Position numbers and translations under genes: made by a program. Source: Psittacicella melopsittaci (GTDB lineage Bacteria; Pseudomonadota; Gammaproteobacteria; Enterobacterales; Psittacicellaceae). From it: a DNA stretch of 64,000 nucleotides. The stretch covers positions 1 to 64,000 of the forward strand of contig NZ_NRJH01000003.1 in NCBI RefSeq assembly GCF_003585925.1, in the 5' to 3' direction. Every line of letters starts with the position of its first letter. The stretch's first letter is position 1. Shown piece after piece: positions 29,034 through 59,480 of this stretch. The notes beneath the pieces are model-generated. The model saw only the letters and a program-made list of their open reading frames with translations, had not been told where the DNA came from and did no database searches.

Positions 29034-29041
29034 CTCTTTTT

Positions 29042-39504: not shown

Positions 39505-42500
39505 TTATTGTTCTTTATCAGTCTTGTCCTTAGGCTTAGGCTTAGCAAATTCTTCTTGCCATTTTTCCCAAACCTCTTGTGCCGTAGCTGAAGGAGTTGA
39601 ATTTCTCTCAAACTTACGACGATGAGAAAGATATCTTTGGATCCGGGCACCCTGATCCTCAAAGACCGATTTTTGCCAGTTAAAGTAAGCAACAAGATCA
39701 GCATAATTGCCTTGACGTCTATTAACAGGAACAATAATTTGCGTTAAATCAATACTATTCCAGTAATAAGGACTAGTATACAAGTTATTTACCTTGTCTT
39801 TAAAGCGGTAAAGACTACCAAAAGCTAGGTTAAAGTCCTTGTAGCCCAGCTTGTCTTTTAAGCTAACCCAGTGCACTAAAGCAGTGTAAGCTTGCCCTTG
39901 CCAGAATTGCTCTTGTAAGTATTGAGCAAAGTCAGCATAGAGGGCTGGATACTGCTCAGGCTTGAGTTTAAAGCGTTCGGCAAATACTGCTGGTATTTGT
40001 TTGGCAAAAGCTTTTTGCTTAAGTTGGTATTTGTTACTTGCTTTAAGAGCAAATAAAACAAACGCATTGCTCTTAAACTCATCTGGCATGCTCACAAATC
40101 TTCTTGCATCAAAAGTATCTAACTCCCGTAAGGCAGCTACAGGATACTCAAGTTGCGGTGGAGCTATGCGTTGGTGTCCTTTACCTCCTTGAGCTAAATG
40201 TTGGTATTGTCGTTGTAAATAGGTATAGTCAACACTAAACTCACGATAGAAGGTTAAAAACTCAGGGTGAGCAACACTTGCATATACCAGACCATAGTTT
40301 AATTTAGTTAAACTCGCAATTAACCAAGCGAGTAAAGCATGGGTAAAGCCCGCATGACTCCGACCTAAGCTCAGGTTGAGTTTACACATTTGCAACCAGT
40401 TTTCTAGACTGAATTCAGTTTTTCCAGCTAGAATTTGTTTGAGTAACTCTTGCCCTTGCTCATAATCAGCAAAAGGATTGTCTTCGAGCTGAGTAAGAAT
40501 TTGCCGATAGACTGTGGCTATGGCATCATCTCTTTCTTGCTCAGGTGCCAGTTGCCAAATCCCTTGATTTGGGGCTTGCGGTTGCTCTTGTTGCATGCGT
40601 CCTAAGAGCAGGGCATTAAAACTCGCAAAATCTAAAGGTCGCACTTGGGCTAACTCTTGTTCACTAATCGGGTTAATTAACAAGAGAAGATGTTGCAGTT
40701 TGTAATGCTCTTTTAAGTAAGGAGCTATTTCCACTTGGCTTAGTTGGGCTTGCTTAGCTTCTAGCTCAGCATCGCTAATATTGTAAGCTACTTGCATAAA
40801 CTTACGATAGTTAGCAATTTGCTCTTTTATTTGCTCTACTTTCTCAGCAACTATATATTGATGCAGGTTGTAGAACTGCATATTATCTAAAGTAGCATCT
40901 TGGAGACTCTGACGATAGCGTTTTACTAACTCATACTCGAGTCTTGGCACCGGATCGAGAGTAAACTTGCGTACTTTAGTTAAATGCTTGAGCGTGTAGT
41001 TAGCTTGGTTAAGAGCTAAATCTTGCATGTGCTCATCTAAGCCTTCTAGAGCTTTAGTCTCGAGTTGCTTGAGCTTTTTCTTAGCTTTAACTAAGGAAGC
41101 TTGCTCTTTGTCATACTTTTTGCTTAAGAAGGCATAGGCCTCTTCTTTGGCTTGCGCAAGTTGCTCTTTGACAATAATATTTACTCTATTGAACTGCTTG
41201 AACTCTTGCTCTACTTCATCTACAGCCTCATGAATAAAGCCAATGAGTTTGTCGAGCACTTGATGATGCACTTGTAACCTCTGCCATGGCGTAAACATGC
41301 GCATTTTGGCATCATTGAGCATTATCTCTTGCGAGTAATAGAGCTCATCAAGCAGGTTATAGAACACTCTTAACCAGTTGTGGGCATAGAGCAGAGGATC
41401 GGCAACATGAACTTTGCAACCATGCTGATGATAAGTGCGACAGAACTTAAAGAGATGTCGCATTAAAGTATTAGCTAAAATCTCTTTGAGCAATGGCGTA
41501 TCAAAATCGAACCAACGCGAAACTATGCGATTATAGATCCTTGGCTCTAAGAGCAAGGCCTTGATGCGTTCGAGAGGCAAATCTAAAAAGTCGTCTAAAC
41601 TAATTTCTATTTCACTTAAACCCTCGAGCACTTGTGCCATGACGTTTTCCAGATTGAAATCATCAAAGGCGTCTTTGGTATCGTGATAATTACGATTAAA
41701 AACTCGCTCATAGGTTTGTTCATAGAAAAAGTCTTCAATACGATCGCGATACGAGCGATACTTGCGCTCTCTTGGCGTCGCTCGAGGTTTTACTGGCTCA
41801 TCATACTGACTAAGCACTTGCTCTCGGCTTGGTACATTTGCTCCATCGCGCTTAAAGGATTGATACTCGCGTAAAGAACGACTAAGAGCTTCACGTAAGG
41901 CTTTATTGCGGCGATACGCACTTTTATGGGGGATAAAGCTCTTTTCGAGAATTTCAATTGCCGTAATAAACTTACGCGTGCCCATATAGTCACGTACCGT
42001 TTTTTCTACCTGCGCTACTAAATAAGGGCGCATGCCTGCATGTAAGGCATAGTTAAAGAACTCAGGACGTAGTTCTTTTTGGCTTGCTCCCATACAAACA
42101 AAACGAGCAATTAAACGACACCAATCGAGCTCTAAATCCCAGATCTTGTCTTCGAGAGCATGAATGCGCACAGCATAAAGCTCAGGACGCTGAGCTGCCA
42201 CCATTTGCCGTTTTTCTAGATTACAGAGCAGTACTTTACGATAGAGATCACGTAAAGCACGACGACAGTTATCTTTGAGTTCGTTAATCGTTTGTTGGGA
42301 AATTTCTTCGACAAACTCGCGCACAGGAGCAAACTCAGGCACATGCTTAATGAGAGGCAAGTTATGTAAATTAACATATTGCTCAGCCTTGGTATTGATC
42401 TTGAGAATCTCTTCGAGCACTTTTTGGCTAATTTGCTTTTGTTTTAAGCGGGCAGCCTTATCTAAAATATGCGTTGGTGGCTCAAGAGGTACTTCAATAT

Positions 42501-45500
42501 GCGGCTGATTGCGTAATCTTGCCCGAATTTTAGCAATGGCTAACTCATGAGCAGCAGCCTCAGGGCTTTTTGCTTTCTCTTTACCTGGAACTGGATACCC
42601 CAGAGCATGAAGTTTATGAGCTAGAGCTGTATACTGCCCTGCAATGCCTGCGTAAAAATGGCGTAAGTACTTGCGCGTACTCTTAGCCTTGCCATAAGCA
42701 GTTTTAATATGAGTTACAATTTTCTCATAATGTTGATATTGCTCATAAATCGCTTTTTGCTCGCGTTCACCATTTACTGGCAGGGGCGGAGCTATTTGTC
42801 CTTTGGCACCACTTTGCTCCCCAGTAAAATAATACTCAACCTTTTGCTTGCTATACCAAGAGTTATAGAGTTTATTAATTTTTTCCAGTAAGCCTAAATA
42901 GTGAATGGTTGTAGCATGGTGATTAGGTAAAGCATAAGGCTGAACCAATTGCTCTACTTGGTAATAAAGCAAGTTACCAAAGTTTTGTAAAATATGGCGT
43001 CCTTGCTCGAGACTAAACTGCTCGTTACCTTTTTTAATCTCACGCTCTTGGGCAAAATGGCTAAGAGCTTGCCCTAAAGCCTCACCATAACTTGGAAAGC
43101 TCTTAAAAGCTTGCTTGCCTGGGTACTTTTGCTGCAAGCGTTTTAGCACTTGAGAGCAGGTTTTTGCTCCCATCGCATAGGCTTTGCTTGCTTGTGTTAG
43201 TTGTACCGAAGCTATTTCCCGCATGCCATAATCTAGGGTAAGAAAATCTATTTCTTCGGGAATATAAACTTGATAGGTATAGAGGCGATCTCTATCGGCA
43301 AAGTGCCCGAGGCGATTGCGTAATAGAGCACTGCCAATTACCGAACCTGCATAGTTGTAGGCCAGATTTTGTAAATGCCCCATAGGCAGTTGCGCTTGCA
43401 CCTTATAAGGAGCTAAAGCTTGCTCTGTACCTTGGAAAATAGCCTCACTATTCGTTGGCACGGTATAGAGCTCAGGATATTTACTTGGATTAGTAAAGGT
43501 TGAAATTCTTTTTGGTAAATAACTTAAAAGCTCAACCCCGACATAGATTTTTATCTCTAAATCTTTTAAGCCCGCAACATCTCTTAATGAGAGTAAACCT
43601 ATAGGGTTTACCACCCGTGAACTATCAGCAAATGGCTGTTGTAAAAAGCTTACTTTGGCATCTTGCTGACGCTTGAGATTTAAAAAGGTCAGGAGATTAC
43701 GCTTAATAAAGTTAAGATCAATAATTTCCTCGCCTCGCTCGCCCAGTTCAGCAAAAGTTGGCAAGTCTTGTTCTGGCTCTGGGAGAGGTTGCACTTGAGG
43801 TTCGATTTTCTTTATCTGCTTAACGTCAGTGATTTTTGTTACTTTCACTCCCTCAGGCACTTGTCCTTCGAGTGCTAGGGCAATCCAAGATTTTGCTTTT
43901 GGTTCAGCTTCAACCACCACTGGCTTAACTTCTTGCCCAATGCGAGGCAAAATATAATCTAAGCGCTGTGGACTCGGAAGCCCTAAGTCAAGCTCTTGTC
44001 GCAGCACTTGCGGGCGCGGGCTTAATTGACGTAAAGCCTGTGCCAGTGTTTTACCGAGAATGCCCTCTTGCTTAAATTGAGCATAGAGAGCTCTTACTAA
44101 AGGAGCTACTTTGTCATTCAGGTAGCCGTCACTTAAAGCCAGAGCATAAGGATCAACTTTTTTAGCAGCTTTAACTTTAGTTTTGCTTTTTTCTTTGTTG
44201 AGGCTCAGAGCATAAGCAACTTCGAGACCACGTAAACGAGCGACAAAATAAGCATTGAGATTTAAATAACCTAAAGCAAACTGCAAGGTTAAGTAGCGAT
44301 TATAGAACTCAAGTTGAGCATTGTTTAAACTCAGCTCTTGTTCGAGATAACGCAAGTGAGCAAAAGCGTGCGGATCATCACTTTGTAAATAAGCAAAGTA
44401 ACGAGCAAAAGGTTGATTTTCGCTAGCATCTTTATAGCTTAAAAAGCTATTACCTTGAGCAGCACTGAGAATGTGCTCTAGGTGCTCTTGAATGCCTGGA
44501 GCTAAGTCCTCGCTATTCTTGCCTAGCAGGCTTAGATTATTATGCGTTTGGCTATATTGCCCAGGTAAAGAAGCAAACTCCTCGAGCTTATAGCGACTTG
44601 CTTCTAGTTTTAAGGCAAATAAACTTTCGAGTTGGAGGATTACGTCATCTAAGCGCTTGTTAAACTTTTGCACTACTAGTCTTGGGGCATGGGCAGGTAA
44701 AACAGCCTGGGCAAAACTTTGTTCTTTGGCAGAGGCAGGAAGTTTTAACCAAGAGTTAAAATCAAGCAGAGTTGGCTTTTCTTCTCGCTCATGGGCTAAA
44801 GCCTCGAGATACTCATAAGCACCTAACTCAGGAGCAGGAGCAAATGGAGAAACATAATCTTGCCCTAAATCACGCGTGAGTTCGGCAAAGCTCAGTTGCT
44901 TGTCTTTGCCTTTTTTACGCCCATAACAAGTTTTTATTTGCTCGTCTATGCAGGTAATAAAGTCTGCAATTAAATCTTGCGCTTTAGCTTTGAGTTGTTC
45001 AGGGCTCGGAAGCTTGCTTGATTTTTTCTCGCTAGTTGCCTGAGCATAAATTTGCTGGCCCAGACGAGCTAATAAATTAGCAAAAGGAGCTAACTCTTCT
45101 TGCCCTAGGTTCGCTAGGGCTTCGAGAATATCTCCACTTAGCACCATAGCAGCGGTATAAGGATGCTCCAGGTCTTTACTTTTTTCTATATCTTTGAGAG
45201 CTTTACTGCTTGTCGTTACCCCTAAATACTGCCCGAGGCTGGCATAGGCTTGCTCTGGAAATAATAAAGCACCTTCGGCATTAATAGTGTTACTTAAGTA
45301 AGGAGCAAAACTATACTTGCTTACATCAAATAGGGCATATACCTCATTCCCCCAATAGTAGCGGGCAAGGTCGCCATTAAATGTAGGTAAACTCTGGCGA
45401 TCTTTATAAGGAATTAACCAATTAATGCTCGGCAGATTAGGAACTTTCTCATAATCAAAATGTAAATCGTAAGACGAACCTACAGTTATATTGGGAGCAC

Positions 45501-46269
45501 AAAAGCCTTTGCAACTAAAGTTAAGATGTAAAATCCGTAAGCAGATGCCTAGCGTTGGTGGGGCAGAAGTAAACTCCGAGGCAAGATACTGCTTTATTTG
45601 CTCAGCAAAGCCCAGCATTTTACCTAAAGCAGGTTTACTACTTAAAAACGGAGCCGCTTCATTCCAACTTGTACGTTGGCGTTTACTTAACTCTTGTAAG
45701 CGTTTTTTACTGGTTTGTAAATTATGTAAATAGCCACGTGCCTCTTGTTTTATTACCTTGCTTTTGGCTTTAAAGGCAGGGCACTTTTGGCTTTTTTGGT
45801 ATAAACGCACAAGCTTACGCGCATCATAACCTAGAGTTCTTACTCTTTGGTCATACTGCAGGCAATATCTGCGAATTGCTCCTAAAAAAAGTAGAGTTTG
45901 TTTTTGTTCGAGAAAATAGGTTGCTTGTGCTCCCTTGTCGTAAACCATGAGGTTTATTTCTCGTCCGCGGCCACCACGGTAAAGAGGAATTTGGTTGAGG
46001 TTAGTCCCTGCATGAGCTGCCAAATTAGGGTCTACATGCAGGTTAAAAGTAGATTTTGTTTTTTGGTTGAGACGAACGGCAAGATACCTTTGCGGCTGCT
46101 GGAAAAAGCTTGCACTAGCAAAGCTATTTACTCCCGCGGCATCTTGACCTTTTTGCCGATAGTTGCGCTCAAGTTGATTGCTGACAATTAAATAATAATG
46201 ATCTTCTTTGAGGGCAAAGTTAGCTGCTGAATACCGAAAAACAAAATACTTATTTAAGACATTTTGCAT
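39505..46269 (-). CDS. Giant protein of unknown function (A), last gene of the thiI operon
   Basis: 2254 residues from the ATG at 46269. A TTG nine codons earlier (46296) overlaps rsmE and has no better ribosome-binding site. No signal peptide or membrane segment is visible, so it is probably cytoplasmic. It is predicted almost wholly alpha-helical, rich in Leu, Gln, Tyr, Lys and Glu. The N-terminal ~300 residues have more strand-like segments and clustered cysteines (FSCKGFCAPN). The last ~20 residues are Lys/Asp/Pro-rich. A Pro/Glu-rich linker near 840-900 suggests two large halves. I recognise no domain. It is GC-richer than the noncoding surroundings. It follows rsmE by 13 bases or less, so it is surely cotranscribed. 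It is not obviously alignable with giant gene B. Confidence 0.7.
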   Translation of the reverse strand: MQNVLNKYFVFRYSAANFALKEDHYYLIVSNQLERNYRQKGQDAAGVNSFASASFFQQPQRYLAVRLNQKTKSTFNLHVDPNLAAHAGTNLNQIPLYRGGRGREINLMVYDKGAQATYFLEQKQTLLFLGAIRRYCLQYDQRVRTLGYDARKLVRLYQKSQKCPAFKAKSKVIKQEARGYLHNLQTSKKRLQELSKRQRTSWNEAAPFLSSKPALGKMLGFAEQIKQYLASEFTSAPPTLGICLRILHLNFSCKGFCAPNITVGSSYDLHFDYEKVPNLPSINWLIPYKDRQSLPTFNGDLARYYWGNEVYALFDVSKYSFAPYLSNTINAEGALLFPEQAYASLGQYLGVTTSSKALKDIEKSKDLEHPYTAAMVLSGDILEALANLGQEELAPFANLLARLGQQIYAQATSEKKSSKLPSPEQLKAKAQDLIADFITCIDEQIKTCYGRKKGKDKQLSFAELTRDLGQDYVSPFAPAPELGAYEYLEALAHEREEKPTLLDFNSWLKLPASAKEQSFAQAVLPAHAPRLVVQKFNKRLDDVILQLESLFALKLEASRYKLEEFASLPGQYSQTHNNLSLLGKNSEDLAPGIQEHLEHILSAAQGNSFLSYKDASENQPFARYFAYLQSDDPHAFAHLRYLEQELSLNNAQLEFYNRYLTLQFALGYLNLNAYFVARLRGLEVAYALSLNKEKSKTKVKAAKKVDPYALALSDGYLNDKVAPLVRALYAQFKQEGILGKTLAQALRQLSPRPQVLRQELDLGLPSPQRLDYILPRIGQEVKPVVVEAEPKAKSWIALALEGQVPEGVKVTKITDVKQIKKIEPQVQPLPEPEQDLPTFAELGERGEEIIDLNFIKRNLLTFLNLKRQQDAKVSFLQQPFADSSRVVNPIGLLSLRDVAGLKDLEIKIYVGVELLSYLPKRISTFTNPSKYPELYTVPTNSEAIFQGTEQALAPYKVQAQLPMGHLQNLAYNYAGSVIGSALLRNRLGHFADRDRLYTYQVYIPEEIDFLTLDYGMREIASVQLTQASKAYAMGAKTCSQVLKRLQQKYPGKQAFKSFPSYGEALGQALSHFAQEREIKKGNEQFSLEQGRHILQNFGNLLYYQVEQLVQPYALPNHHATTIHYLGLLEKINKLYNSWYSKQKVEYYFTGEQSGAKGQIAPPLPVNGEREQKAIYEQYQHYEKIVTHIKTAYGKAKSTRKYLRHFYAGIAGQYTALAHKLHALGYPVPGKEKAKSPEAAAHELAIAKIRARLRNQPHIEVPLEPPTHILDKAARLKQKQISQKVLEEILKINTKAEQYVNLHNLPLIKHVPEFAPVREFVEEISQQTINELKDNCRRALRDLYRKVLLCNLEKRQMVAAQRPELYAVRIHALEDKIWDLELDWCRLIARFVCMGASQKELRPEFFNYALHAGMRPYLVAQVEKTVRDYMGTRKFITAIEILEKSFIPHKSAYRRNKALREALSRSLREYQSFKRDGANVPSREQVLSQYDEPVKPRATPRERKYRSYRDRIEDFFYEQTYERVFNRNYHDTKDAFDDFNLENVMAQVLEGLSEIEISLDDFLDLPLERIKALLLEPRIYNRIVSRWFDFDTPLLKEILANTLMRHLFKFCRTYHQHGCKVHVADPLLYAHNWLRVFYNLLDELYYSQEIMLNDAKMRMFTPWQRLQVHHQVLDKLIGFIHEAVDEVEQEFKQFNRVNIIVKEQLAQAKEEAYAFLSKKYDKEQASLVKAKKKLKQLETKALEGLDEHMQDLALNQANYTLKHLTKVRKFTLDPVPRLEYELVKRYRQSLQDATLDNMQFYNLHQYIVAEKVEQIKEQIANYRKFMQVAYNISDAELEAKQAQLSQVEIAPYLKEHYKLQHLLLLINPISEQELAQVRPLDFASFNALLLGRMQQEQPQAPNQGIWQLAPEQERDDAIATVYRQILTQLEDNPFADYEQGQELLKQILAGKTEFSLENWLQMCKLNLSLGRSHAGFTHALLAWLIASLTKLNYGLVYASVAHPEFLTFYREFSVDYTYLQRQYQHLAQGGKGHQRIAPPQLEYPVAALRELDTFDARRFVSMPDEFKSNAFVLFALKASNKYQLKQKAFAKQIPAVFAERFKLKPEQYPALYADFAQYLQEQFWQGQAYTALVHWVSLKDKLGYKDFNLAFGSLYRFKDKVNNLYTSPYYWNSIDLTQIIVPVNRRQGNYADLVAYFNWQKSVFEDQGARIQRYLSHRRKFERNSTPSATAQEVWEKWQEEFAKPKPKDKTDKEQ

Positions 46270-46282
46270 GGCAATTTCTCGT

Positions 46283-47026
46283 CTATAAGTCTCCAAGTTG
46301 AGCTTGGAGAATCGCTAGGGCAGTAAGCCCAGCTGTTTCTGTCCGTAAAACGCGCGGTCCTAAATTGAAATCGGTAAAACCTACCTCGCTTGCTTGGGCA
46401 ATTTCTTGCTCGGATAAGCCACCTTCTGAGCCTATGAGCAGATTAATTTGCTCATACTCAGGAGCTATATTGCGTAAGCGTTGCCCCGCAAAAGGATTTA
46501 AATTAACATAGAGGCACTTATCCTGAGGTTTTACTTGGGCAAAGTACTCTTTTATGCTAATGGCTGGATTTAAACGAGGAATGCTATCGCGATAACTCTG
46601 CAAACAAGCAGCAACGATAATTGCTTGCCAGTGTGCCATTTTTTTAGCGAGGCGTTCGCCGCTCAGGCTTACCCCACAACGCTCGGTAAAAATAGGGGTA
46701 ATTTCTTTTACCCCTAATTCTACTGCTTTTTGGATAGTAAGATCCATGCGATCACCACGGGAAATACCTTGAATTAAATGCAAATGTAGAGGCGACTCAT
46801 TGTTTGCCACCACATATTCATGCAGTTCTACTTGGGCAGATTTTTTTGCCACATTAACTAGAGTACCCACATAGTGACCACCCGAGCCATCAACAACATG
46901 AATTTGTTCGCCGTCAGTTAAACGTAACACTTTGCATAGATGCTGAAAAGAATCATCGCTCAAGGTTAAAGTATAAGGTAGGCTTACTTCAAGCACTTGC
47001 GGGTGATAGGTACGATATAAACGCAT
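46283..47026 (-). CDS. rsmE: 16S rRNA m3U1498 methyltransferase RsmE
   Basis: 247 residues, SPOUT-class dimeric enzyme. The N-terminal PUA-like domain has the RxYH start (MRLYRTYH). The C-terminal knot carries the AdoMet motifs IGSEGGLSEQE and NLGPRVLRTETA. It methylates N3 of U1498 on assembled 30S subunits. It starts 3 bases after thiI ends and is directly followed by giant gene A. Confidence 0.95.
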   Translation of the reverse strand: MRLYRTYHPQVLEVSLPYTLTLSDDSFQHLCKVLRLTDGEQIHVVDGSGGHYVGTLVNVAKKSAQVELHEYVVANNESPLHLHLIQGISRGDRMDLTIQKAVELGVKEITPIFTERCGVSLSGERLAKKMAHWQAIIVAACLQSYRDSIPRLNPAISIKEYFAQVKPQDKCLYVNLNPFAGQRLRNIAPEYEQINLLIGSEGGLSEQEIAQASEVGFTDFNLGPRVLRTETAGLTALAILQAQLGDL

Positions 47027-47029
47027 AAT

Positions 47030-48565
47030 CTATTTGTATTTCGAAGTTAAGGAAGAGGTAGTGTCGTCAGCTTGTCCTTTAACTAAAGGATCCTCAAAGC
47101 TAAAGTCTTTAGCCAGCACTACAACATTTTTATGACCATTTTCAATGAGATTTACTGCCTGAATCCGGCTTAGTAAGCCTTTAGTACAGTAAAGCACATA
47201 ACGTTTGCTTTGATCTAATTCAGCAAACTTTTCTCCTAAAGCAAAGAAAGGTATATTAAGCACGCTTACTGGCCATGGATTATTAGCTTGCTCAAAAGTC
47301 TCAGCGTCACGTACATCTATTACCACGTCAGTAGCAGGATTTAAGTGATGCACAAAAGTTAATTGCGTCGACTCTATGTGAGCTAAATCTTGACTGGCAA
47401 TGTCACGTAAACTTTCTACTTTAGCTGAATCTAAAGCTTGAGCTACTAGAGCTTCTATATCAAGTTTACTTTCTTCTTGCTCTAAAGTAGCACGGTCGGC
47501 AGCTATGGTTGGTTTTTTCCCCATAATGCCACAGAACTCTTGCACGCGTGCCGAGATTTCGGCAGTTTGGATTTGCTGGGCAATGCGAATAATTTCTTCT
47601 TTGTCCATGGCAATTAATGGACGTAAGACTGGTATTTCACTTACACGTTCAATTTCGGCAAGGTTTTTTAGTGTTTGCGAACTTACTTGCCCTAGAGCTT
47701 CACCTGTTACCAGACCATCGATGCGTAAACGACGGGCAATGGCATTAGCCACGCGATAGAACATACGTTTTAAGCACACGCCTGTATAACCATCACTTAC
47801 GGCATTGGCAATATTGAGCATAATTGGGTAAAAGTCTACGGTAACAAATTTTACATTATGCGAAGCTGAGTAGCCTTGCCAAATTTTTCTCGCAATACGT
47901 TTTACATAATACTCATGCTCTTGTCCCCCGAGATTGAAAAAGACATAATGCAGTTTACAGCCTCGACGAATCATTTGCCATGAAGATACTGCTGAGTCGT
48001 AACCCCCAGAAATCATTGAGAGTACGGCATCTTGAGTACCAATTGGGAAGCCCCCTAAACCAGAAAAACTATGCTCAATTAAAAAAGCTTGCTCATTGTC
48101 AATTTCAATTTGTACGGTTTCTTCAGGCTTGGTAAGGTTTACACTAGCCCCAGGAATATTTTGTCGTAAGCCACCACCAACGTAGCGTTCGATATCGATT
48201 GAACGTACTTGGTGTTTACCTTTACGTTTTACCCGCACACAAAAAGTTTTATTTTGCAGACGTTGAGCATTAAGTTTTAACACTTCCTCAAATAATTGAT
48301 GCATATCCACAAAAGGCACGAGCTTAATTTTTAGGATCTTCTGAATTCCAGGTACTTGACGCAGAATCTGCACAAATACAGGATATAACGCTGGATCACA
48401 TTTTGCTCGCACGAGAATATTGTCCCAGTTAGGTTGAATGGAACAATCAAGATTATAAGTTTTTAAACTTTGACGTATGTTTGATGAAAGAATTTTTACA
48501 AAACGCTTGCGTACTGAGTCTGACTTGGTCACTATCTCAGGATGCAGTTTAATGCGCAAATACAT
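47030..48565 (-). CDS. thiI: tRNA 4-thiouridine synthase / thiamine sulphur transferase ThiI
   Basis: 511 residues. N-terminal ferredoxin-like and THUMP domains (about 1-165), PP-loop SGGYDS (186-191), Cys345 in EFCGIM, and a C-terminal rhodanese domain with catalytic Cys460 in LYCTKG. The rhodanese extension is the gammaproteobacterial form. It relays sulphur from IscS for s4U8 in tRNA and for the thiamine thiazole. A ~40-residue insertion near 355-400 makes it slightly longer than E. coli ThiI (482). First gene of the thiI-rsmE-giant A operon. Confidence 0.96.
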   Translation of the reverse strand: MYLRIKLHPEIVTKSDSVRKRFVKILSSNIRQSLKTYNLDCSIQPNWDNILVRAKCDPALYPVFVQILRQVPGIQKILKIKLVPFVDMHQLFEEVLKLNAQRLQNKTFCVRVKRKGKHQVRSIDIERYVGGGLRQNIPGASVNLTKPEETVQIEIDNEQAFLIEHSFSGLGGFPIGTQDAVLSMISGGYDSAVSSWQMIRRGCKLHYVFFNLGGQEHEYYVKRIARKIWQGYSASHNVKFVTVDFYPIMLNIANAVSDGYTGVCLKRMFYRVANAIARRLRIDGLVTGEALGQVSSQTLKNLAEIERVSEIPVLRPLIAMDKEEIIRIAQQIQTAEISARVQEFCGIMGKKPTIAADRATLEQEESKLDIEALVAQALDSAKVESLRDIASQDLAHIESTQLTFVHHLNPATDVVIDVRDAETFEQANNPWPVSVLNIPFFALGEKFAELDQSKRYVLYCTKGLLSRIQAVNLIENGHKNVVVLAKDFSFEDPLVKGQADDTTSSLTSKYK

Positions 48566-49051
48566 ATCTATCCTTGTAGAGGTTTTTAAATACTAACTTA
48601 AATATCAATTTCCTTGAGTTAGAAAATAACTTCAAGTATTGTCTATTATACCGCGTTTAGCCAATCCCCGCAAAAGCATTTTGTCGCATTTTCCGCGACT
48701 TTAGCTCGCTTTTTTGCCTTAGCCAACTTGCCTTAGCAAGCAAGAAAACCCGGAGCTAAAACCTAGGCAAGGCTTTAACAAAAAAGAGAGCAAGTTCTTA
48801 GCAAAATTCTGAATCAACTGTACCTTAAAATAAAACTCTAAACCCGCCGTTACCAAATCCCAAATACAAACTGCTCCCTAACTTCATTTTTCTTAGTTCA
48901 AGCTTATTTTTATATTCTTGCTTTAAGTTGTTTTTTATTTTCTTATTTCAAGTTATTTTTCTACTTCCTTGCTTTAAGCTGAATTTTATCTCCTTGTTTT
49001 AAGCTGATTTTTAGGTTTTTTTTGCCAATAATGTTCATTTTTTTCTCAGAA

Positions 49052-49113
49052 AGTGTGATCTAGGTCACATTTTGACAAAAAAACAAAATAAAACTTGCAT
49101 TTACTCTCTATAA
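49052..49113 (+). promoter_or_regulatory. CRP-dependent promoter driving a noncoding transcript
   Basis: TGTGATCTAGGTCACA (49054-49069), flanked by A and T, is almost the perfect CRP consensus. A TATAAT box at 49108-49113 predicts a start near 49120, which puts the site centre about 58 bases upstream, close to the class I spacing of -61.5. The direction is plus, away from thiI and into sequence without a protein gene. No -35 box is seen, as expected for an activated promoter. Confidence 0.65.
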
Positions 49114-49431
49114 TGAGATTAGAGGATAAGGATAATATTTTAGTCCTTAACCAATAATAAATAATAAAAAATCAGCCTCAGCTAAAAAAGCTAAAGCATC
49201 CTCTCGAGCTAAAACAGACTTAATAACTCCCCAGAGCTAAAAATCTATAATTCCCCTCAAGAGAGATACTACCCCTATACTTCTTCTCACAAGCCAAGAT
49301 AATTCTTCTCACGAGCAAAATAATCTCCCTAAGCTAACAACAAAAATGTTTGCCCTTTAAGCTATTTAGCAATATCTCCCTTGAGATAGCTAGTTGCTGT
49401 ACGTCCATTGCTTACCAATAGTACGTATACA

Positions 49432-49600
49432 AGATAGTAATAATGCCTCTACAAGATAACCACAGTACCTATGTAAAATAGTAATTGTGCCTATGCTAGA
49501 TAACAAGTACAAATCTAGCTAAATAACAAGTACAAATCAGGAAAGATAACAAGTACTAGTCTGGCTAGTTAACAAGTATAAATCTGCCTAGATAACAAGC
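49432..49600. repeat. 22-23-bp tandem array, about eight units
   Basis: Units with consensus AGATAACAAGTACnAATCTnnCT begin at about 49432, 49454, 49476, 49498, 49521, 49544, 49567 and 49590 (last partial). The first three are 22 bp and more diverged, the rest 23 bp. No spacers, so it is not a CRISPR array. It lies in the predicted transcript from the CRP promoter. Confidence 0.8.
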
Positions 49601-49734
49601 CTCGCAAAGTATTTTGTTTTAGTTAGGTACAACTTAGCTCGCAGAGACTGGCAAGTTAAATTCGGCACGGCAAGCTTTAGTTACTTAAACTCAGATGGCT
49701 GCCTGCATACCTCTTGCCTTACCTTATATCTCAA

Positions 49735-49881
49735 TGTGTAGCCTCTAGGATATTTAAAAAAAATTGGTAGCTCCCAATTTTTTTGAGAGATTCGGCTCAC
49801 ATACTGTCACCTACGAGGCTACACACCTAAAATAGTATGTGAATTGCAAATACCAAGAGTGACCTGCTCTTGGTTTTTTTC
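49735..49881 (+). ncRNA. Pseudoknotted structured RNA with intrinsic terminator
   Basis: Helix A is 11 bp (TGTGTAGCCTC, 49735-49745 with 49815-49825). Inside it, hairpin B is 11 bp (49757-49767 with 49774-49784, arm ending ATTGG). Helix C is 9 bp (TCACATACT, 49797-49805 with 49834-49842) and crosses helix A, giving an H-type pseudoknot. A terminator with 8-bp stem ACCAAGAG (49852-49859 with 49867-49874) and T-run closes it. A TTATAT box sits six bases before helix A. It may be an independent RNA, the 3' end of the CRP transcript, or a riboswitch-like leader of the LpxH gene 54 bases downstream. It matches no RNA family I know. Confidence 0.6.
49852..49880 (+). terminator. Terminator of the pseudoknotted RNA
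   Basis: An 8-bp stem ACCAAGAG/CTCTTGGT with a 7-base loop and a T-run to 49880. Confidence 0.85.
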
Positions 49882-49934
49882 TCTTATGTTAAAATAATTG
49901 CGTAATAATCTATTTTTTATCCCGTAAAAAAGCT

Positions 49935-51305
49935 ATGGCCTTACCTTTTGTTACTCAGGTTGAACGTGAAAACTACGCCAACCTTTGGATTTATAATTTT
50001 TTTATAAGTGATTTACACTTACAAGAATCAACTGCTGAACTAAATCAGCAGTTTGCTGCTTTTATCCAGCAACTACTTACCCTAGCCCAAAACAATAAAA
50101 GGGAAAATACTAAACGCCATTTACGCCTTTATATCCTCGGTGACTTTCTCGCCCTCGGCATTGGCGACTTTATTCCCGATTGGTTTAAACCCTATCAAGA
50201 AAGCTTACAAACTCTAGCCCAGGCTGGAGTAGAAATTTTCTTTATGGTAGGCAACCGCGATTTTCTCTTAGGGAAAAAATTTAGTCAAGGCATAGGAGCT
50301 ACTTTTTTGCCAGAAAACACTATAGTTGACTTTAGTACTAATGCAACTGGAGCTCAGGCTTACTACCAGTATTTATCTCCTAGTCTGACCAGTATTGTCA
50401 GCAATGAACAAACCTATAGCAAGCGTGAACAACTGTGTGCCGAGTTTAAGCACCGCTTACAAGAGCATGCCCCTCTTGCCAAAACTGAGGATAGTTTACG
50501 CCTCTGGTTATGTCATGGCGATAACCTCTGCCTTAGCGATGAAGCCTACCAAAAATATCGTCGCTTTATTCGTTCGGGCTTAATGCAAGGAGTGGAAAAA
50601 CTGATCCCAACTTGGTTGGTAAAAAAAATTGCCCAAAGAATTTCAGCAGCATCGCAGCGTAAACGTCAAGAGCACGAAGAACGCCAAACCCAAATTACCG
50701 CAACTTGGGGCGAGCTCTCAAGTCTGGATATGGCAGATATCGACTTAAACTACACCCATTTTTTAGCCCAGTTAAGTCAAGCTAATCTCCTTGTCTATGG
50801 TCATGTTCATCGACAAAGAATTCTTAGTTGGAACCTTGCCGACCCCCAAGTGCAAGCTTATGCTAGTGGGGAACAAAAAATTGCTTTTGGTAACCTAAAC
50901 CAGGTTAATACCCCAAGCATTTACACCGAAGTAGATGATCTTTACCCTATTCCCGTGGGTAAAATTCGTACTTTTACTGCGGGAATTAAGCAAGAACCTG
51001 ATGCATCTGAGCAAGCTTGGGCTAAACTTGACGCTCTAAGCCAAAATCTTTTACCTCTTACTCGCCAAGATTTTTACACCGCTTCTATGGCAGACTGGCT
51101 CAGTGAGGCAGATCTTGCCCACCAAGAGCAACTCCAAGCCCAAGCGGTTAAATCTTGGCAACAGCAAGCCCAAGAACAAGTAAGACAAAAAGTAGCTTGG
51201 ACACAAACCAAGCAAAGTCCAACCTCAATTGGCTTGCTTGTGCAGCAAGCTTATAGCCAAGAACAAATAGTTAATACTTTTGCTTTTGCCTTTATTAGCC
51301 TTTAA
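49935..51305 (+). CDS. lpxH: LpxH-like metallophosphoesterase, enlarged
   Basis: 456 residues. All LpxH metal ligands are recognisable: D26 and H28 (ISDLHL), D70 (LGD), N107 (GNRD), H194 (CHGDNLCLSDEAYQKYRR) and H290/H292 (GHVH). LpxH hydrolyses UDP-2,3-diacylglucosamine to lipid X on the inner face of the inner membrane in lipid A synthesis. E. coli LpxH has 240 residues; here there is a ~45-residue insertion (about 135-185) and a ~160-residue Gln/Ala-rich C-terminal extension with no known domain. It lies 113 bases before giant gene B, so probably the same operon. Family call firm, exact role likely. Confidence 0.82.
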   Translation: MALPFVTQVERENYANLWIYNFFISDLHLQESTAELNQQFAAFIQQLLTLAQNNKRENTKRHLRLYILGDFLALGIGDFIPDWFKPYQESLQTLAQAGVEIFFMVGNRDFLLGKKFSQGIGATFLPENTIVDFSTNATGAQAYYQYLSPSLTSIVSNEQTYSKREQLCAEFKHRLQEHAPLAKTEDSLRLWLCHGDNLCLSDEAYQKYRRFIRSGLMQGVEKLIPTWLVKKIAQRISAASQRKRQEHEERQTQITATWGELSSLDMADIDLNYTHFLAQLSQANLLVYGHVHRQRILSWNLADPQVQAYASGEQKIAFGNLNQVNTPSIYTEVDDLYPIPVGKIRTFTAGIKQEPDASEQAWAKLDALSQNLLPLTRQDFYTASMADWLSEADLAHQEQLQAQAVKSWQQQAQEQVRQKVAWTQTKQSPTSIGLLVQQAYSQEQIVNTFAFAFISL

Positions 51306-51418
51306 CTTAGTTTAAGGGCTTTTTTTTCCCCTTAAAGCGAGTAGAACTGGTAAAATAGAGATATGGCTTACCGCTAAGTCTAAGCCTAAAAAGAAAAATA
51401 ACTATTTCCCAAATTTTT

Positions 51419-54400
51419 ATGTCGAAACAATCTTTACCGCGCTTAAAAGTCTTTGTTTTACATGGGCAAAACTCTTTAACTGACCTAAAAGAGTTATTAA
51501 ATGCCAATACTATTCAAAGTCTTGATTTTAAGCAAGCCTATACTTACCGTGGGATAGAGAACATTCGCTTCCATAGTATGCCGTTTGTTTTTGAACTCGG
51601 GGTAGATAATTATCCGCAAATAGTGGAATTTAACTTTATTGCCAGCAATGCCTTTCCCTCACAATTGCTTGACTATCAATTAGTGCAGGGCGGTCCGTTT
51701 GGTAAAGAGGCAACTCGTAAAGTAATTCCTTTTGCCCAATTAGCAAGTTCAACCTATAACCTGAGCCTCTATCGTCTGGTATATGACAACCTCTACCAAA
51801 ATGTGCCAGCAAGTTTAATGCCAACCTATGAGAGTTTGCCTTTACCTGTAAAATATGACGCTCTTCCTGCTCTGGTTGCTAAACCTTATCGTGTTTCTTT
51901 TTACCATACCGAGTTAAATAATCTATTTGATCCTAACTCTTATAGCTCGAGCCTTAAGGGTATGGCACCGCGCGAAAGACGTTGGCAACACGACAATAAA
52001 TACCATAATCCAGGTAATCCGCCAGAAAAGGGTGATATTTTCGCGGCATATATGGAGTTAGCGCGCAAGAAAAATACTATTGAGCCCCCATTTTACTTTG
52101 GGGACGCTGTTTCTTATGCCATTTATCAGCGCTTTATTACTAACCCGATTGCCAAAAATATCCAGGATCCTGTAAAAGTTCTCTATCACCTGCGTCCTAA
52201 CCAAACTCAAGAGGACTTAGTGACGGTGTATCAACGCAGTGAAACTAAGTTCAGACACCATAATCGCGTGGAAAAAATGGTCAATGACTATATTATTGGT
52301 GCTGTAAAAAACAACCTCAAATACTGGTCGGTAGATGACCTTTCTGAGTTTTTACGCGATAAAGCTCCGCTGGTTGAGGATATGACAGGTATGGATCCTA
52401 AACTCAGTAAAGAGTTTAAAGCTGCTGACTTACCTTGGTTAGGAACCTATGAGCGTACTGCCTTTGCTGTCGACTATGAAAACACTGGGGGTGTAAAATC
52501 TCTGTCTCGAGCTTATGGCGAGCGTTTAACTTACAGTACAACGCCAATTAATCTCGCTCTGAGTGACGCGAGTTTTGCGAAAAAACTTACGAGCCAAGAA
52601 AAAGAAAAGTTCCCTGGTTTTGCGCACGCGGCTAAAGAGTATCTCCAGCTTTACTATCAGCAAAAAATTACCTTACAGACGGCATCTGACAAGATTTTTA
52701 ATGATCTCAATCTAGCTAACGCCTTTGCTCTAAAACAAGGTGGGGAATTACGCTTTAATGCGAGCCTTAAACTGCCAGAACCTGCTTTAGAGCGAGCAAA
52801 AAGTGTCGCTCCTTATTTAACTCCGCGTCCGTTTTATGGTAAAGATGTCTTAAAAGATCTCGACTCTTATCTTTACTTTATGGAACTGGCACACCTAGAG
52901 CAAGAGCCAATTGCTCCTGCTAAAGAGCCAATTAACTTTAAGCGCACCGCAAACTTACCACGAGCTTTAGTGGATTTTGCTCCTTTTACTAATTATGTCA
53001 CTACCCAAATTAGCCAAATTGGCATTCGCTATGCTTATTTAGATCTGCTTGATCTCGTCCTTAAAAAAGTAAACACTCCGCTTACGTTTAGACAACTAGG
53101 CAGAGGCTTTAAACATGCAAGCAAACTAATTCAAGGTTTTTGGGCAAGAAGAGGCAATAGCCTTGAAGAGCGTCAAGTAGCTCAAGCTTATCAAGAAGCT
53201 TTAATTGGCGAAGAGCAACGTACGCGTTTACAACAGCTAGTGAACCTGAGTCAGTATAGCCATTTTCTTACTTGGGCAAATCAGTTTGGTCCAATAGGTA
53301 AATATGACCTCGACCCAGCCTTATTAGCAAAACGCAGTAAAGACTTTACTCTGGGCATTATGCTTGAGTCTAACTATGACTCAAGTAAGGATATGTACAA
53401 GCAGTTTAGTAAAGGCTTTTATCTCCTCAACCCTGCAACCTTTGCCGTAACTTCGCGTTTATTTGGGGAGTACAATTATCCAGGCTTTACTAACTATAAT
53501 GCGGCCTACTATAACCCGTATGAGCCTATGCTCATTACAGGTAGTGCTCGCCTGCGTCTGCGTCTCGAGCAGTATAAGGCAATGCAAGAAGACTTACGTC
53601 TGACCCCTTTAAATATTCCTGCTTATTTAGAAGAGCCAAGACAACTGGCTTATGAGCAAATTATTTACCGCAGTGCTTTAGCAAATATTTTCTTAGCTCG
53701 CGAGTACAAGCAAAGCTTTAGTCCAATGAGTAGCAATAACCTTGCGACCATAAGTGCACGCTTAAATCCGCACTTAGCTCCAGAGCAACGTCTGCAAGTG
53801 AGCTTGAGCCCGCTCGTTAATCAGGATCCGGCTGACTTCCCTTATGCTTATCAAGAGCCTGAGTTTGTCGCTCAGACGCAACGCCCTATGGAGCTGGTTG
53901 AGCTTAAAAAGCAAAAAGATGCTTCTTACCCAGTACGCAAACTGCAAGTGAGCACTCAAGATCCAACCGTAGCTGCGGTAATGCAGGAAATCGAACACGA
54001 GTATCAAGCGCAAATTAAACGCAATAAAATTAGTTACCTCGAAGAACCTGAGCGCATGCTTGAGTCTTTTGCCAGTGAAGAGGCTATTCTCAAGGCTCCA
54101 TTACAAGCTTGGATGCAAATGTTCCCGCAATTAATTTGGCGTTATAACACTGCCAAAGAATACTTTAAAGCAGGAGGCAAGGGCTTTGGGGCACTAGGTA
54201 ATGTTTACTATCACTTAAGTACGAACACTCTACCTTCGTTAGAGTACCCAAATCTTGCTGATAAGTTCAAGCAATACTTTGCATTTGCTCACAACCAAAT
54301 TCGTGGCGTAGGTCTAGGTTTACCACCGCGTAAGAGCTATGAGAATATTCTCATGAAAGCCCTGTATAACCGCGTTTACTATATTATGGAAAATGTGGAT

Positions 54401-57400
54401 CTCTACTTAATGCGTCCACAAAACCTAACCTACTTTGTTAGTCTGGGACTCGATAGCTTTAGTCGCGGCAAATACAATCGTAAAGAAAACCAACTCTATC
54501 TTGATGTTTTTGCTCAAGAAGTTAAACTACAAAAAGCAAGTAACTTCAAAGCTAAAACTCTGGGGCAAGCTTCGCTTAGCCTTGCCAAAAGACAAAAAAC
54601 CAAGGTTGGGCAAGTATTTGCTGACTTTAGTTCGCCAGCTGAGTTACAAAATAGCTATAACTTACCAACCACGCGTTGGCAATATATTGCTAGTGCTACA
54701 CTGGATCCGCAAGTTTATACCTATGATGCTGATCCTGCGGTGAACATGCTTCGCTTCCGCAATAACACTAATTTATTTGCCTATGACGAACAGCCGTTAA
54801 TGCGTAATGCTTCGGATGTGTTTGCTAACTATGTGCATTTAAATGAGTTCTATGAGCGTCTCCGTTTAGATCTCACGGTGACTAACAGTGTGTTTATTGC
54901 GAGCAAGGCAGCTGCCGATGGCTTTTTCACTACTCTAGCTCAAGAGCTCGAAGACAAATTAAGCTTTATGAGCGAGCATCTGCGCAAGGCTTTATTAATT
55001 CCAGCCTTAAACGAACGCAGTGCTTTATATGCCCAACAAGATACACACCTTTTTGTGGTGCCTATTCCAATTGAGCATAAACCAACTCTATTAGAGCAAG
55101 ATTTAGAAAGCTATCAACAAAAATGGCGTCATAATCTCCAAGCGCAAGACTTTGAGCAAGCAAGAGAACAAGCCCAAAAACAAGGGCAAATTTTACCTTA
55201 CCCAGTAGATCCAACGAGTTTAGAACTCTGGTTCGTTTATCAGCTCTTTGGCGATCGCTTAGACTTTATTAACTCTAAACTAGATCGCATTAACCTCGCT
55301 CTTTACTTAAAAGCTCTTGAACCTGCGGTTAAAGTAGCCTATGACCTCAGTGAGGCACAGCTCCAAGATTATAAAGTCCCTCTTAGTCAAATGCTTACTT
55401 ACTTTAATCCAGGGGAAAACCTCGAAGAGCTCTTTAAGCGTTTAACTAAGTTTAGTCAAACTGAACTCGCTGATTTTGTGAAAAAGGCTCGTCTGTTAGT
55501 GCGACCTCAACACAAAACTCGACGCCCTACAGGCAAACTAGCATGGTTAAATCAGTTAACTAGCAGTGGGGTGCCAGATAACCTCGAGCAACTGGTGCAA
55601 CAACTGAGCACCAAACAACTAGAGCAGGCTCTTGATTATATTGCCCAACTTGATGGGCAACTTCTCTGGTTAGCTAACCTTAACCTAGAGCAAGAGCCAA
55701 GCACCTATGCCTTTGCCGTAGACACAGTTAATGCCTTTAGTGCTTATTTACCTAGCGGGGTGCGCTTGGCTCCAAGTGCAAGCTATGCCCTTGAATCTAT
55801 CGCTCAGGCGCAAGATCCAGCTTATGTAGGCAATAAAAACCTCAAACTGGCAAGCTTAGAACAATTTGCTCAAAGCAAAGAGCCTCTGCTCTGGCAAAGC
55901 CTAGAAAAATTCTTTGCCCAAGAAAAGGAACTGCTTGAAAGTGCAAGATACCAACTGCAATTGTCACTAACTCAGGGGGTATTTACTCCAGGTAAGGGCA
56001 CCAGTGCCTACTGTGTGCGTTGGTTAAAAGCCTTAGTGCAACATCTGAACCTTAAAGCCCAAACTGGTCTAGCCTGTCGTTTTCTTTCGACTCATCCAAG
56101 CCGTGTCTTTGCTTCGAGCTTGGCAATGCTCTATCCTGAGTTTGGTTATAGAGGCGATGATGCTATTGCCGAAGGGATCTTTAGTCGTTTTTACATTGCT
56201 GGACAAGCGACTGCTCCACAGCTAGTGCCTACTTTAGCAGGCGAGCTTGACTTAAATAGCCCAGCTGCTCCATTGCTTTACCTCTGGCAGCAAGCTGGTC
56301 TAAGCCGAGCTCAACTCGAAGAAGTGCTCGCAACAGATCCAGAAACTGCAAAATTGTTAGAGCAAGCTCCAAGCAATGGCTTTAATGCCAACTTTAAAGC
56401 TTACCTCTACTTTACTATTTTGCCTCAGCTCTTAAATACGCCAGTATTTAACCTCGAGCAAATGCAAAAACAACTTGATAAAGTAGTTAAAGCTTTAGAG
56501 CAAGAAACTAATTTAGCTCCTTGGCATGCTTTAGAGTACACGCCAATTGATTTATTCTATAAATCTTTTGCTAAATACTTTAGTAGCTTAGCTCCTTACT
56601 TAAGTAAAGACAAAGAGCCAAGCAAGCAATTAGGTCTGCACCTCGAGCAAACCCTGGATAATCTGTATCATCAAGGCAAACTCGAGTTAGGTCGTCAAGG
56701 TGATGCCCATATAGATCCTAATCGCGAACTTGGCGTGCGTTATGATGTGCTCTTAAGTCAGCACCTGAATAATACTTTCTTTAACCTAACCTATGCTTAT
56801 GCTACTTATAACCCGGAAGAGCTAGCTAAACGTGCAAGTACAGCATTGCTCGACCCTGAGTATCACTTATTTAAAGGTACGCCTGCCATTGTCCATGCTT
56901 TCCATAAAGACTATGACAATGATGTAGACGAACAAGATAAGCTCCAACTCAATTTAAGTGTGCTTAAGTATAAAGAAGACCCTATGTACAAACAGGCGCG
57001 TCGTATTCACTATCAATATAACGAGTACCTGAAAAACAAACACTTGGCTCCATTTATCCCTCTCTATCTCCCACTTGCGAGTATAGAGAATCAGGTAATC
57101 CAAGTTGACCCAAGTGTACCAGGTCTTCTTAGCGCTCCACAAATTGCTCAACTGCAAAAAGGTTGGTATAAAACTCTGCCATACTTTTTTGAAGGGAAAA
57201 AACGTAACGCCGATCCACGCGTGTTCGATTTAACCTATGTAGCTAACTACAACTGGCAACAAGTGGGCAGTGTTTGGGATCTATTCCTCAGTAAAAACCC
57301 AGGCAAGGATCTCTATAGCCTGCAACAGCTGTACCTTGCTCATGCCTTTAGTGAGCGTGAAGTAGCTCGTAATCTGGTGACCCTGCGTCTGCAAGATAAA

Positions 57401-58831
57401 GTGCCACAAGCTCTTTATTTACCAGCTCGTCCTTTACACTTACTTTATGCTACGAGCGAAGAAAGTACTTATTTAGGCAAACAAAGTCATGAACTTTTAG
57501 CTACCTTTAGGGCTCATGCCCAAATCTTGCAACAAAAACTTTTCAATGCCTTAATGCGTCAGTATCATGTATTGGAAAAACTGCAAGATCTGCCAAGAGT
57601 AGCCAAAGGACAAATAACCTTGCCGTTTGAGTCGCTAAATACTTGGCGTACAACCATCACCAAAACGCCATTCTATTCGGCGCGTTTAGAATCTGAGCTC
57701 TTAAATAAATTCTTAGCTGAGTTTGTTTGTGAGCATGGCATGGATAATATCGAAGCGGAAAAAGCTTTAGATAACTTTATTCTGCAAACTAAAGTGTATC
57801 GCTCTTTACCAGAAAAACGTGAACAAACTGTCCTCAAGTACTACCATGAAGCAGGACTTGATTATGTTCTCAATGCCCAAGCTCCACGAGATGTAAATTT
57901 TGAGCAAGAGTTAAATCTGCACCAATACGGCGTAAGCCGCATTCGTAATAACCCAGAAAAACTCTTTGCTGATGCTCTACTCCGTAAATGGGCAATTGCT
58001 GATCGCAAACGTGTTCCACTCGACGAAGAGCAACTCTTTGCCGATACTGATTTTGAGGCACTTGAGCGCAATCACCTCGCAGCTCTAAATTACCCTAGCT
58101 CAGAGCAACAAGAGTTCTCTTTTGCTCCAGTTAAAGAATTAGAGCCTACGCTAGGTTGGCAAGAGCTTACTACTGCAACTTTTACTGCTTTAGAACTGCT
58201 CTATAAAGACTTTTATATCACCTATCCAAGGTTAAGTGCTTCACAAGCTAAAGCCCAAAGCTTAAGCCCAGTAGCACCAGCTAGTTATGATTTAAGAGCT
58301 TTACAAGAGGCTTTTGCAAGTAAAGAAAAAGTAACGCACCAGCTTATAGCTCGCATTTTAGGCATTAAGCCTAACTGGAAGTTTAAAGCGGGAGATTACA
58401 ACTTTAAAGCACGTTGTGAGCAACTGGCACAAGTGTTAATGCATACTTTAGTAAGGGTTAACCAAGCTTCGGCACAGCCGTTACATCTCGCAGATCTTTG
58501 CCAACTCTTTGTCAACACCTATCGCGTGTTTATGCAAGTCAAAGTAATGGTAATTGCAGATCAACGCTTACTCGAAGCAACCACGGCAATGAATCCTGAA
58601 CTTTTAGATTCACCTTATGTGTATGTTCTCAATAACACCTCAAGTTTCCAAACTTGGGCAGAGCAACATCCACAAGTATCAGTGATCTTTGCAAGTCAGA
58701 ATAAGTCACAAACTATAGCCCATATCTGTAATACTTTTGCTCAGGCACAACAGATAAGCCTAATGCAATTAGAAGAAACAGAATGGTATCCATACTTCCA
58801 AGCTTTAGTTAAAGCTTATACATATAAATAA
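51419..58831 (+). CDS. Giant protein of unknown function (B)
   Basis: 2470 residues, no signal peptide and no clear membrane segment, so presumably cytoplasmic. Mostly helical and rich in Leu, Tyr, Gln, Ala and Lys. The last ~120 residues look like a small alpha/beta domain (VKVMVIADQRLL, SPYVYVLNN, VSVIFASQNKS), possibly a Rossmann or Toprim-type fold, but no catalytic signature is secure. The rest matches nothing I know. It carries many near-repeated words (EQARE, QLxxL), but not strict repeats. It follows the LpxH gene and ends in a terminator. It is similar in size and composition to giant gene A, on the other side of the divergent region. Confidence 0.7.
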   Translation: MSKQSLPRLKVFVLHGQNSLTDLKELLNANTIQSLDFKQAYTYRGIENIRFHSMPFVFELGVDNYPQIVEFNFIASNAFPSQLLDYQLVQGGPFGKEATRKVIPFAQLASSTYNLSLYRLVYDNLYQNVPASLMPTYESLPLPVKYDALPALVAKPYRVSFYHTELNNLFDPNSYSSSLKGMAPRERRWQHDNKYHNPGNPPEKGDIFAAYMELARKKNTIEPPFYFGDAVSYAIYQRFITNPIAKNIQDPVKVLYHLRPNQTQEDLVTVYQRSETKFRHHNRVEKMVNDYIIGAVKNNLKYWSVDDLSEFLRDKAPLVEDMTGMDPKLSKEFKAADLPWLGTYERTAFAVDYENTGGVKSLSRAYGERLTYSTTPINLALSDASFAKKLTSQEKEKFPGFAHAAKEYLQLYYQQKITLQTASDKIFNDLNLANAFALKQGGELRFNASLKLPEPALERAKSVAPYLTPRPFYGKDVLKDLDSYLYFMELAHLEQEPIAPAKEPINFKRTANLPRALVDFAPFTNYVTTQISQIGIRYAYLDLLDLVLKKVNTPLTFRQLGRGFKHASKLIQGFWARRGNSLEERQVAQAYQEALIGEEQRTRLQQLVNLSQYSHFLTWANQFGPIGKYDLDPALLAKRSKDFTLGIMLESNYDSSKDMYKQFSKGFYLLNPATFAVTSRLFGEYNYPGFTNYNAAYYNPYEPMLITGSARLRLRLEQYKAMQEDLRLTPLNIPAYLEEPRQLAYEQIIYRSALANIFLAREYKQSFSPMSSNNLATISARLNPHLAPEQRLQVSLSPLVNQDPADFPYAYQEPEFVAQTQRPMELVELKKQKDASYPVRKLQVSTQDPTVAAVMQEIEHEYQAQIKRNKISYLEEPERMLESFASEEAILKAPLQAWMQMFPQLIWRYNTAKEYFKAGGKGFGALGNVYYHLSTNTLPSLEYPNLADKFKQYFAFAHNQIRGVGLGLPPRKSYENILMKALYNRVYYIMENVDLYLMRPQNLTYFVSLGLDSFSRGKYNRKENQLYLDVFAQEVKLQKASNFKAKTLGQASLSLAKRQKTKVGQVFADFSSPAELQNSYNLPTTRWQYIASATLDPQVYTYDADPAVNMLRFRNNTNLFAYDEQPLMRNASDVFANYVHLNEFYERLRLDLTVTNSVFIASKAAADGFFTTLAQELEDKLSFMSEHLRKALLIPALNERSALYAQQDTHLFVVPIPIEHKPTLLEQDLESYQQKWRHNLQAQDFEQAREQAQKQGQILPYPVDPTSLELWFVYQLFGDRLDFINSKLDRINLALYLKALEPAVKVAYDLSEAQLQDYKVPLSQMLTYFNPGENLEELFKRLTKFSQTELADFVKKARLLVRPQHKTRRPTGKLAWLNQLTSSGVPDNLEQLVQQLSTKQLEQALDYIAQLDGQLLWLANLNLEQEPSTYAFAVDTVNAFSAYLPSGVRLAPSASYALESIAQAQDPAYVGNKNLKLASLEQFAQSKEPLLWQSLEKFFAQEKELLESARYQLQLSLTQGVFTPGKGTSAYCVRWLKALVQHLNLKAQTGLACRFLSTHPSRVFASSLAMLYPEFGYRGDDAIAEGIFSRFYIAGQATAPQLVPTLAGELDLNSPAAPLLYLWQQAGLSRAQLEEVLATDPETAKLLEQAPSNGFNANFKAYLYFTILPQLLNTPVFNLEQMQKQLDKVVKALEQETNLAPWHALEYTPIDLFYKSFAKYFSSLAPYLSKDKEPSKQLGLHLEQTLDNLYHQGKLELGRQGDAHIDPNRELGVRYDVLLSQHLNNTFFNLTYAYATYNPEELAKRASTALLDPEYHLFKGTPAIVHAFHKDYDNDVDEQDKLQLNLSVLKYKEDPMYKQARRIHYQYNEYLKNKHLAPFIPLYLPLASIENQVIQVDPSVPGLLSAPQIAQLQKGWYKTLPYFFEGKKRNADPRVFDLTYVANYNWQQVGSVWDLFLSKNPGKDLYSLQQLYLAHAFSEREVARNLVTLRLQDKVPQALYLPARPLHLLYATSEESTYLGKQSHELLATFRAHAQILQQKLFNALMRQYHVLEKLQDLPRVAKGQITLPFESLNTWRTTITKTPFYSARLESELLNKFLAEFVCEHGMDNIEAEKALDNFILQTKVYRSLPEKREQTVLKYYHEAGLDYVLNAQAPRDVNFEQELNLHQYGVSRIRNNPEKLFADALLRKWAIADRKRVPLDEEQLFADTDFEALERNHLAALNYPSSEQQEFSFAPVKELEPTLGWQELTTATFTALELLYKDFYITYPRLSASQAKAQSLSPVAPASYDLRALQEAFASKEKVTHQLIARILGIKPNWKFKAGDYNFKARCEQLAQVLMHTLVRVNQASAQPLHLADLCQLFVNTYRVFMQVKVMVIADQRLLEATTAMNPELLDSPYVYVLNNTSSFQTWAEQHPQVSVIFASQNKSQTIAHICNTFAQAQQISLMQLEETEWYPYFQALVKAYTYK

Positions 58832-59130: not shown

Positions 59131-59480
59131 ACAAAAGCAAAAAGGATATAAAAGAATTGAGCTGAAAAAGCAAAAATCCCCTCTTCTCAATAAAACAAAA
59201 AATCTCTTTTTAAAAAAGGCAAAAAATTACAATTAAATAAAAAAATTAAAGAGAATATCAGAGAAAAAATGATAAAAAAATAAAAAATAAATAAAAAAAT
59301 AAATAAAAAAATAAAAAAGTTTAAAAAAAATTTAAATTTTTTTTGTAACTTTTAGTTATGTAAAAATAGGCTAATTTTTACCTTTAAAATCTCCTGCCAA
59401 GCAAGAAAAAACGGCTAATTTACACAGTTTCTCATTTTGGTGCTTCCCGAACCTATCGCTATTGCAGAACAATATAAAGT

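Follow-up and report, generated by a model that had tools for sequence, protein, structure and literature searches.

The described proteins closest in kind to those analysed here are Giant1-5 of Apilactobacillus kunkeei, which are very large, lineage-restricted and fast diverging, occupy a fixed chromosomal place and have few or no homologues (PMC12863079). Some members of this set were added later in the lineage (PMC12863079). The Giant1-5 proteins carry a Sec signal peptide, long internal repeats and DUF5776 C-termini, contain beta-solenoids, and have been found in culture supernatant (PMC12863079). A broader class, the bacterial giant genes, is surveyed in PMC11573180 (citing Reva and Tuemmler 2008) as longer than 5 kb, strain- or lineage-specific and mostly uncharacterised; according to the same survey, huge bacterial proteins fall mainly into two functional groups, surface proteins and NRPS/PKS.

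We analysed a window of 64,000 nucleotides from Psittacicella melopsittaci (the whole stretch, positions 1 to 64,000 of contig NZ_NRJH01000003.1), in which a first-pass annotation had pointed out two giant genes, here called A and B. Psittacicella is placed in the Psittacicellaceae, Pasteurellales, and the three papers found to mention the genus deal with bird microbiomes or hospital wastewater. A and B share with Giant1-5 the very large size, the restriction to one lineage, the fixed chromosomal place, the scarcity of homologues and the fast divergence, but they differ in lacking a signal, a Pfam domain and, in this species, repeats, and in not forming a tandem cluster. They also resemble the bacterial giant genes in length, lineage specificity and lack of characterisation, but match neither of the two main groups named in that survey, by domain search or by signal.

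Results

Two giant genes behind divergent housekeeping genes

Both giant open reading frames are present where the first-pass annotation had put them, except that the start of A was shifted. Gene A had been given as 39505-46296 on the minus strand, which makes 2263 codons when counted from TTG, but alignment with three relatives showed that the TTG at 46296 is a non-conserved start, so the start was moved to the ATG at 46269 and gene A (39505..46269, minus strand) encodes an orphan protein of 2254 aa. It lies behind thiI (tRNA 4-thiouridine synthetase; 47030..48565, minus strand) and rsmE (16S rRNA m3U1498 methyltransferase; 46283..47026, minus strand), with 13 bp between rsmE and A (12 bp in the related genome G002). 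Gene B (51419..58831, plus strand; 2470 codons) encodes an orphan protein of 2470 aa and sits 113 bp behind lpxH (UDP-2,3-diacylglucosamine diphosphatase; 49935..51305, plus strand). NCBIfam and Pfam confirmed all three neighbours, and the layout, A-rsmE-thiI divergent from lpxH-B, was constant in three species. The stretch between A and B, which had been described as a noncoding RNA region, gave no Rfam match, and its length was different in every relative. A guess at function from the neighbours, RNA modification from ThiI and RsmE or lipid A from LpxH, would be weak, because ThiI/RsmE and LpxH do not form one pathway.

Several other features were observed around the locus. Directly 3' of B, at 58877-59141, there are purine-rich tandem repeats (AAGGAAAGAG, AAAGC units) within a gene-poor stretch of about 7.7 kb, and approximately 14 kb downstream of B (L030:8765-14760) a Type I restriction R subunit of 1045 aa is followed by two uncharacterised ORFs of 553 and 395 aa. 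Elsewhere in the window, two clusters at 21259-23185 and 28384-29668 together contain five related genes for short proteins (about 190-220 aa) that are lipoprotein-like or exported, with relatives in G002.

Length variation and selection

The genus sample consisted of four draft Psittacicella genomes (this one and G001, G002 and G003) with completeness of 86-92%. A was found in all four, with lengths of 2254, 2424, at least 2527 (the frame runs to the contig end) and approximately 3920 aa, and B was found in three (this genome, G001 and G002), with lengths from 2467 to approximately 2798 aa. The longest A is that of G003, pieced together from two contigs whose ends have exactly 54 nt in common, in frame, inside an Asp-rich repeat; the joined total is 11763 nt in a single frame throughout, and the figure of approximately 3920 aa assumes that both contigs join at the overlap, with a repeat number that may be collapsed. 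This tandem repeat (DYDFADDSDDR units) broke the assembly within A, at the tails of L032 and L033 (contigs C24 and C200 of G003).

Both frames are intact in the parrot-associated relatives, and chance is excluded as their origin because other genomes of the genus have open frames of such length at the same position. In the aligned codons of both A and B, conservation followed the order position 2 > 1 > 3 in every species pair, which means that both are translated and under purifying selection. The first-pass annotation had proposed strong selection over 4700 codons, which overstates the constraint. Purifying selection was indeed found, but it is concentrated in blocks: three-way identity was 78.5% for ThiI, 70.4% for RsmE and 41.4% for LpxH, against 24.6% for B and 10.9% for A, and each giant is a mosaic of conserved blocks and nearly unconstrained linkers.

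In A, the conserved N-terminal block (45655..46269, minus strand) covers about 205 aa with 33-37% identity, and its best part is the N-terminal 100 residues, with 38% three-way identity. In B, the best-conserved block is residues 1078-1177 (54650..54949, plus strand), which is 68% identical in all three species and contains SATLDPQVYTYDADP and RNASD; residues 2001-2050 reach 58%, and residues 201-450 are almost unconserved. The block at 1078-1177 has many invariant polar and aromatic residues, with invariant D, N, R, Y and T residues at high density, so we infer that it is the foremost candidate for an active site or a binding site.

Distribution outside the genus

The closest relatives, and the only matches in the named genome collection, were Psittacicella gerlachiana EEAB3T1 and Psittacicella hinzii B96_3, which carry orthologues of both genes. 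Profiles of A and B gave no match in 390 other genomes of the order, and none in an even sample of the class apart from one 18.6-bit match to the N-terminus of A (G608), which was judged to be chance, a helical tail, and rejected. The core of B had no match in a sample of the phylum. Altogether approximately 1,100 other proteobacterial genomes were sampled, and Psittacicella was the sole genus of its family among the genomes compared. Searches with tblastn against phages and plasmids gave no match to A or B, and viral contigs (IMG/VR) gave none either. As far as the collections searched show, A and B are thus genus-restricted orphans that resemble nothing described, phage and plasmid proteins included.

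Searches for domains, signals and folds

As the first-pass annotation had stated, no recognisable domain was found: neither protein gave a match above cut-off in Pfam, NCBIfam, PHROGs or PADLOC, no PHROG was found for A or B at E below 0.05, and profiles of their conserved parts matched no PDB chain, although the alignments of three to four sequences behind them are shallow and remote homology may lie below profile sensitivity. No known large protein family was matched in any of these collections. Weak domain matches (among them HxlR, Helicase_C_3, FliT, ferritin-like) were rejected since they were limited to a single protein or member or fell far below cut-off, as did the PLuB repeat model, which scored 23.8 bits where the cut-off is 250.

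The annotated lack of an export signal was borne out as well. The top 19-residue hydropathy was 1.27 in A and 1.15 in B, not above ThiI and LpxH, so no signal-like or transmembrane-like segment was present, and A and B are presumed cytosolic on the absence of a Sec signal and of a membrane segment. No internal repeats were found in either protein of this species. With no hydrophobic N-terminus, no internal repeats and no adhesin domain, the two do not look like giant surface proteins or adhesins; nor do they look like NRPS/PKS, as Pfam and NCBIfam found no condensation, adenylation, ketosynthase or carrier domains in A, B or their orthologues. For defence systems, PADLOC gave no match and the flanks are thiI, rsmE and lpxH.

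Segment-wise structure prediction with AlphaFold gave a mean pLDDT of 36 and pTM of 0.31 for A 1-991 (four sequences), and a pLDDT of 32 and pTM of 0.18 for B 890-1332 (three sequences). These low-confidence models weakly indicate the helical character that had been assigned to both proteins.

Other large proteins of the genus

LpxH of E. coli has about 240 aa and HrpA of E. coli about 1300 aa. LpxH is enlarged in Psittacicella, with 456 aa here and 485-584 aa in the relatives (L024:5362-6819, L025:17884-19599 and L027:5364-7118), and its between-species identity is just 36-52%, though that of its neighbour ThiI is 79-87%. An HrpA-type helicase ORF, identified by eye from the sequence, is also enlarged, to approximately 1917 codons. 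A third orphan giant of 1279 aa, P0003, lies beside a secA-like gene (L054:10815-14654). It has no Pfam family and 31-42% identity to its relatives. All four Psittacicella genomes carry it, in frames of 1312-1864 codons, and it was found in none of four other families (0/4). Like A and B, P0003 is genus-restricted as far as tested, without a Pfam family, variable in length and without apparent signal; unlike them, it is smaller and lies elsewhere in the genome, and it has no detected sequence relation to either. We had suspected P0003 to be an enlarged DciA, and this was dropped as the DciA profile did not match it; that profile gave only sub-threshold matches, within the HrpA-like helicase.

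Most other giant ORFs in about 437 kb of sampled sequence were recognisable, being two-partner-secretion-like surface proteins, DUF285 repeat proteins and a 1011-aa TraN protein. In the window itself, a two-partner-secretion exoprotein of 1815 aa (ESPR and TPS domain) with a Pro/Glu-rich repeat tail was seen at 2550-7997, and two tandem paralogous genes, both with repeats of a 75-bp unit, at 33067-36671, the second of which is a DUF285 protein (617 bits). More DUF285 proteins, with 8-24 matched stretches each, were seen on other contigs (L053 and L066). Within a tendency of the genus to large, fast-evolving cytosolic proteins, A and B seem to stand at the far end.

This tendency also bears on the alternative that A, B or both are ordinary housekeeping proteins, hugely enlarged and diverged, whose small conserved N-terminal or core block is the ancestral domain. 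The sizes of LpxH (up to 584 aa) and of the HrpA-type helicase are precedents in the same genus, and in A and B conservation is concentrated in small blocks. However, the N-terminal blocks searched alone at permissive E-values gave no Pfam family above cut-off, and the conserved parts had no counterpart among PDB chains, so we regard it as unlikely, if the best placed of the alternatives.

Relation between A and B

The first-pass annotation had suggested that A and B might be a two-component assembly, and in this alternative the two would act together in one assembly, for instance a large complex in the cytosol, and G003 would have lost B secondarily. The neighbourhood conserved in three species speaks for it, and so does the likeness of A and B in size. 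Their similar composition, which had also been pointed out, was confirmed: of 152 ORFs with 300 codons or more, no two are closer in amino-acid composition than A and B (distance 0.064). This likeness says little, because the HrpA-like helicase ORF lies nearly as close to A (0.070).

The phylogenetic profile points the other way, largely towards independence. G003 has A, but a profile search through the whole of its 86%-complete assembly did not find B at E up to 10, and in this genome the slot on the lpxH side was assembled with synteny kept on both sides; the genes past the slot, recognised by eye as an SgaT-like transporter ORF and kinase-like ORFs, match genes beyond B in the window contig. 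Beside lpxH the slot instead holds a 639-aa orphan ORF (L027:3305-5224). Neither a Pfam match nor a counterpart in the other three Psittacicella genomes was found for this ORF, and it was rejected as a substitute for B or a leftover of it. By RsmE, G003 has diverged furthest among the four genomes (57% identity, vs 75-80%), so B may be younger than A, or may have been lost there.

Further points against one assembly are that direct comparison of A with B gave no detectable homology, that the evolutionary rates are very different (25% identity for B, 11% for A), that the two genes lie in separate transcription units, and that a further orphan giant, P0003, occurs elsewhere in the genome. Thus A and B are probably not two halves of one machine, and the assembly is a less probable alternative than enlarged housekeeping proteins.

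Discussion

We consider A and B to be cytosolic proteins restricted to Psittacicella, unrelated to each other and inherited vertically, which are part of a tendency of the genus and not one two-part machine, and we would put the probability of this reading at roughly 55%. Each giant would be a large multi-domain protein in which a few conserved folded blocks do the work. The working blocks would be an N-terminal domain in both A and B and, in B, also the polar, aromatic-rich core as a putative catalytic or binding site. Between these blocks would run long linkers, helical or disordered, that change fast and can take up insertions, of which the Asp-rich repeat of A in G003 would be an example. 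As neither structure model was confident, this picture of blocks and linkers is drawn from conservation. A would probably be co-transcribed with thiI-rsmE, with B downstream of lpxH, and constitutive expression is predicted for both. If a division of roles were to be guessed, B would be an enzyme and A a scaffold. It is a long shot that A and B found two new folds and together build a cytosolic machine or cytoskeleton-like structure peculiar to Psittacicella, in which the B core would be a new type of enzyme site.

The weakest alternative, that A, B or both are large effectors or contact-dependent toxins secreted or injected by a signal-less exit route, would suit the large size, the rapid change, the variable linkers and the conserved N-terminus followed by a hypervariable stretch, but we think it very improbable given that in all species the genes keep one chromosomal position behind housekeeping genes, that no adjacent immunity or secretion genes were seen, that there were no matches to toxin or defence families and no RTX or other internal repeats, and that the C-terminal regions of B are conserved and not swapped ends.

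A and B alone overturn no current picture. Their interest lies in the fact that a bird-associated genus devotes approximately 14 kb, about 0.6% of the genome, to two signal-less giants outside both main classes, and that these change several times faster than their neighbours yet stay open. They are a clean case in which to study how proteins of the cytosol become larger and why giant orphan genes persist.
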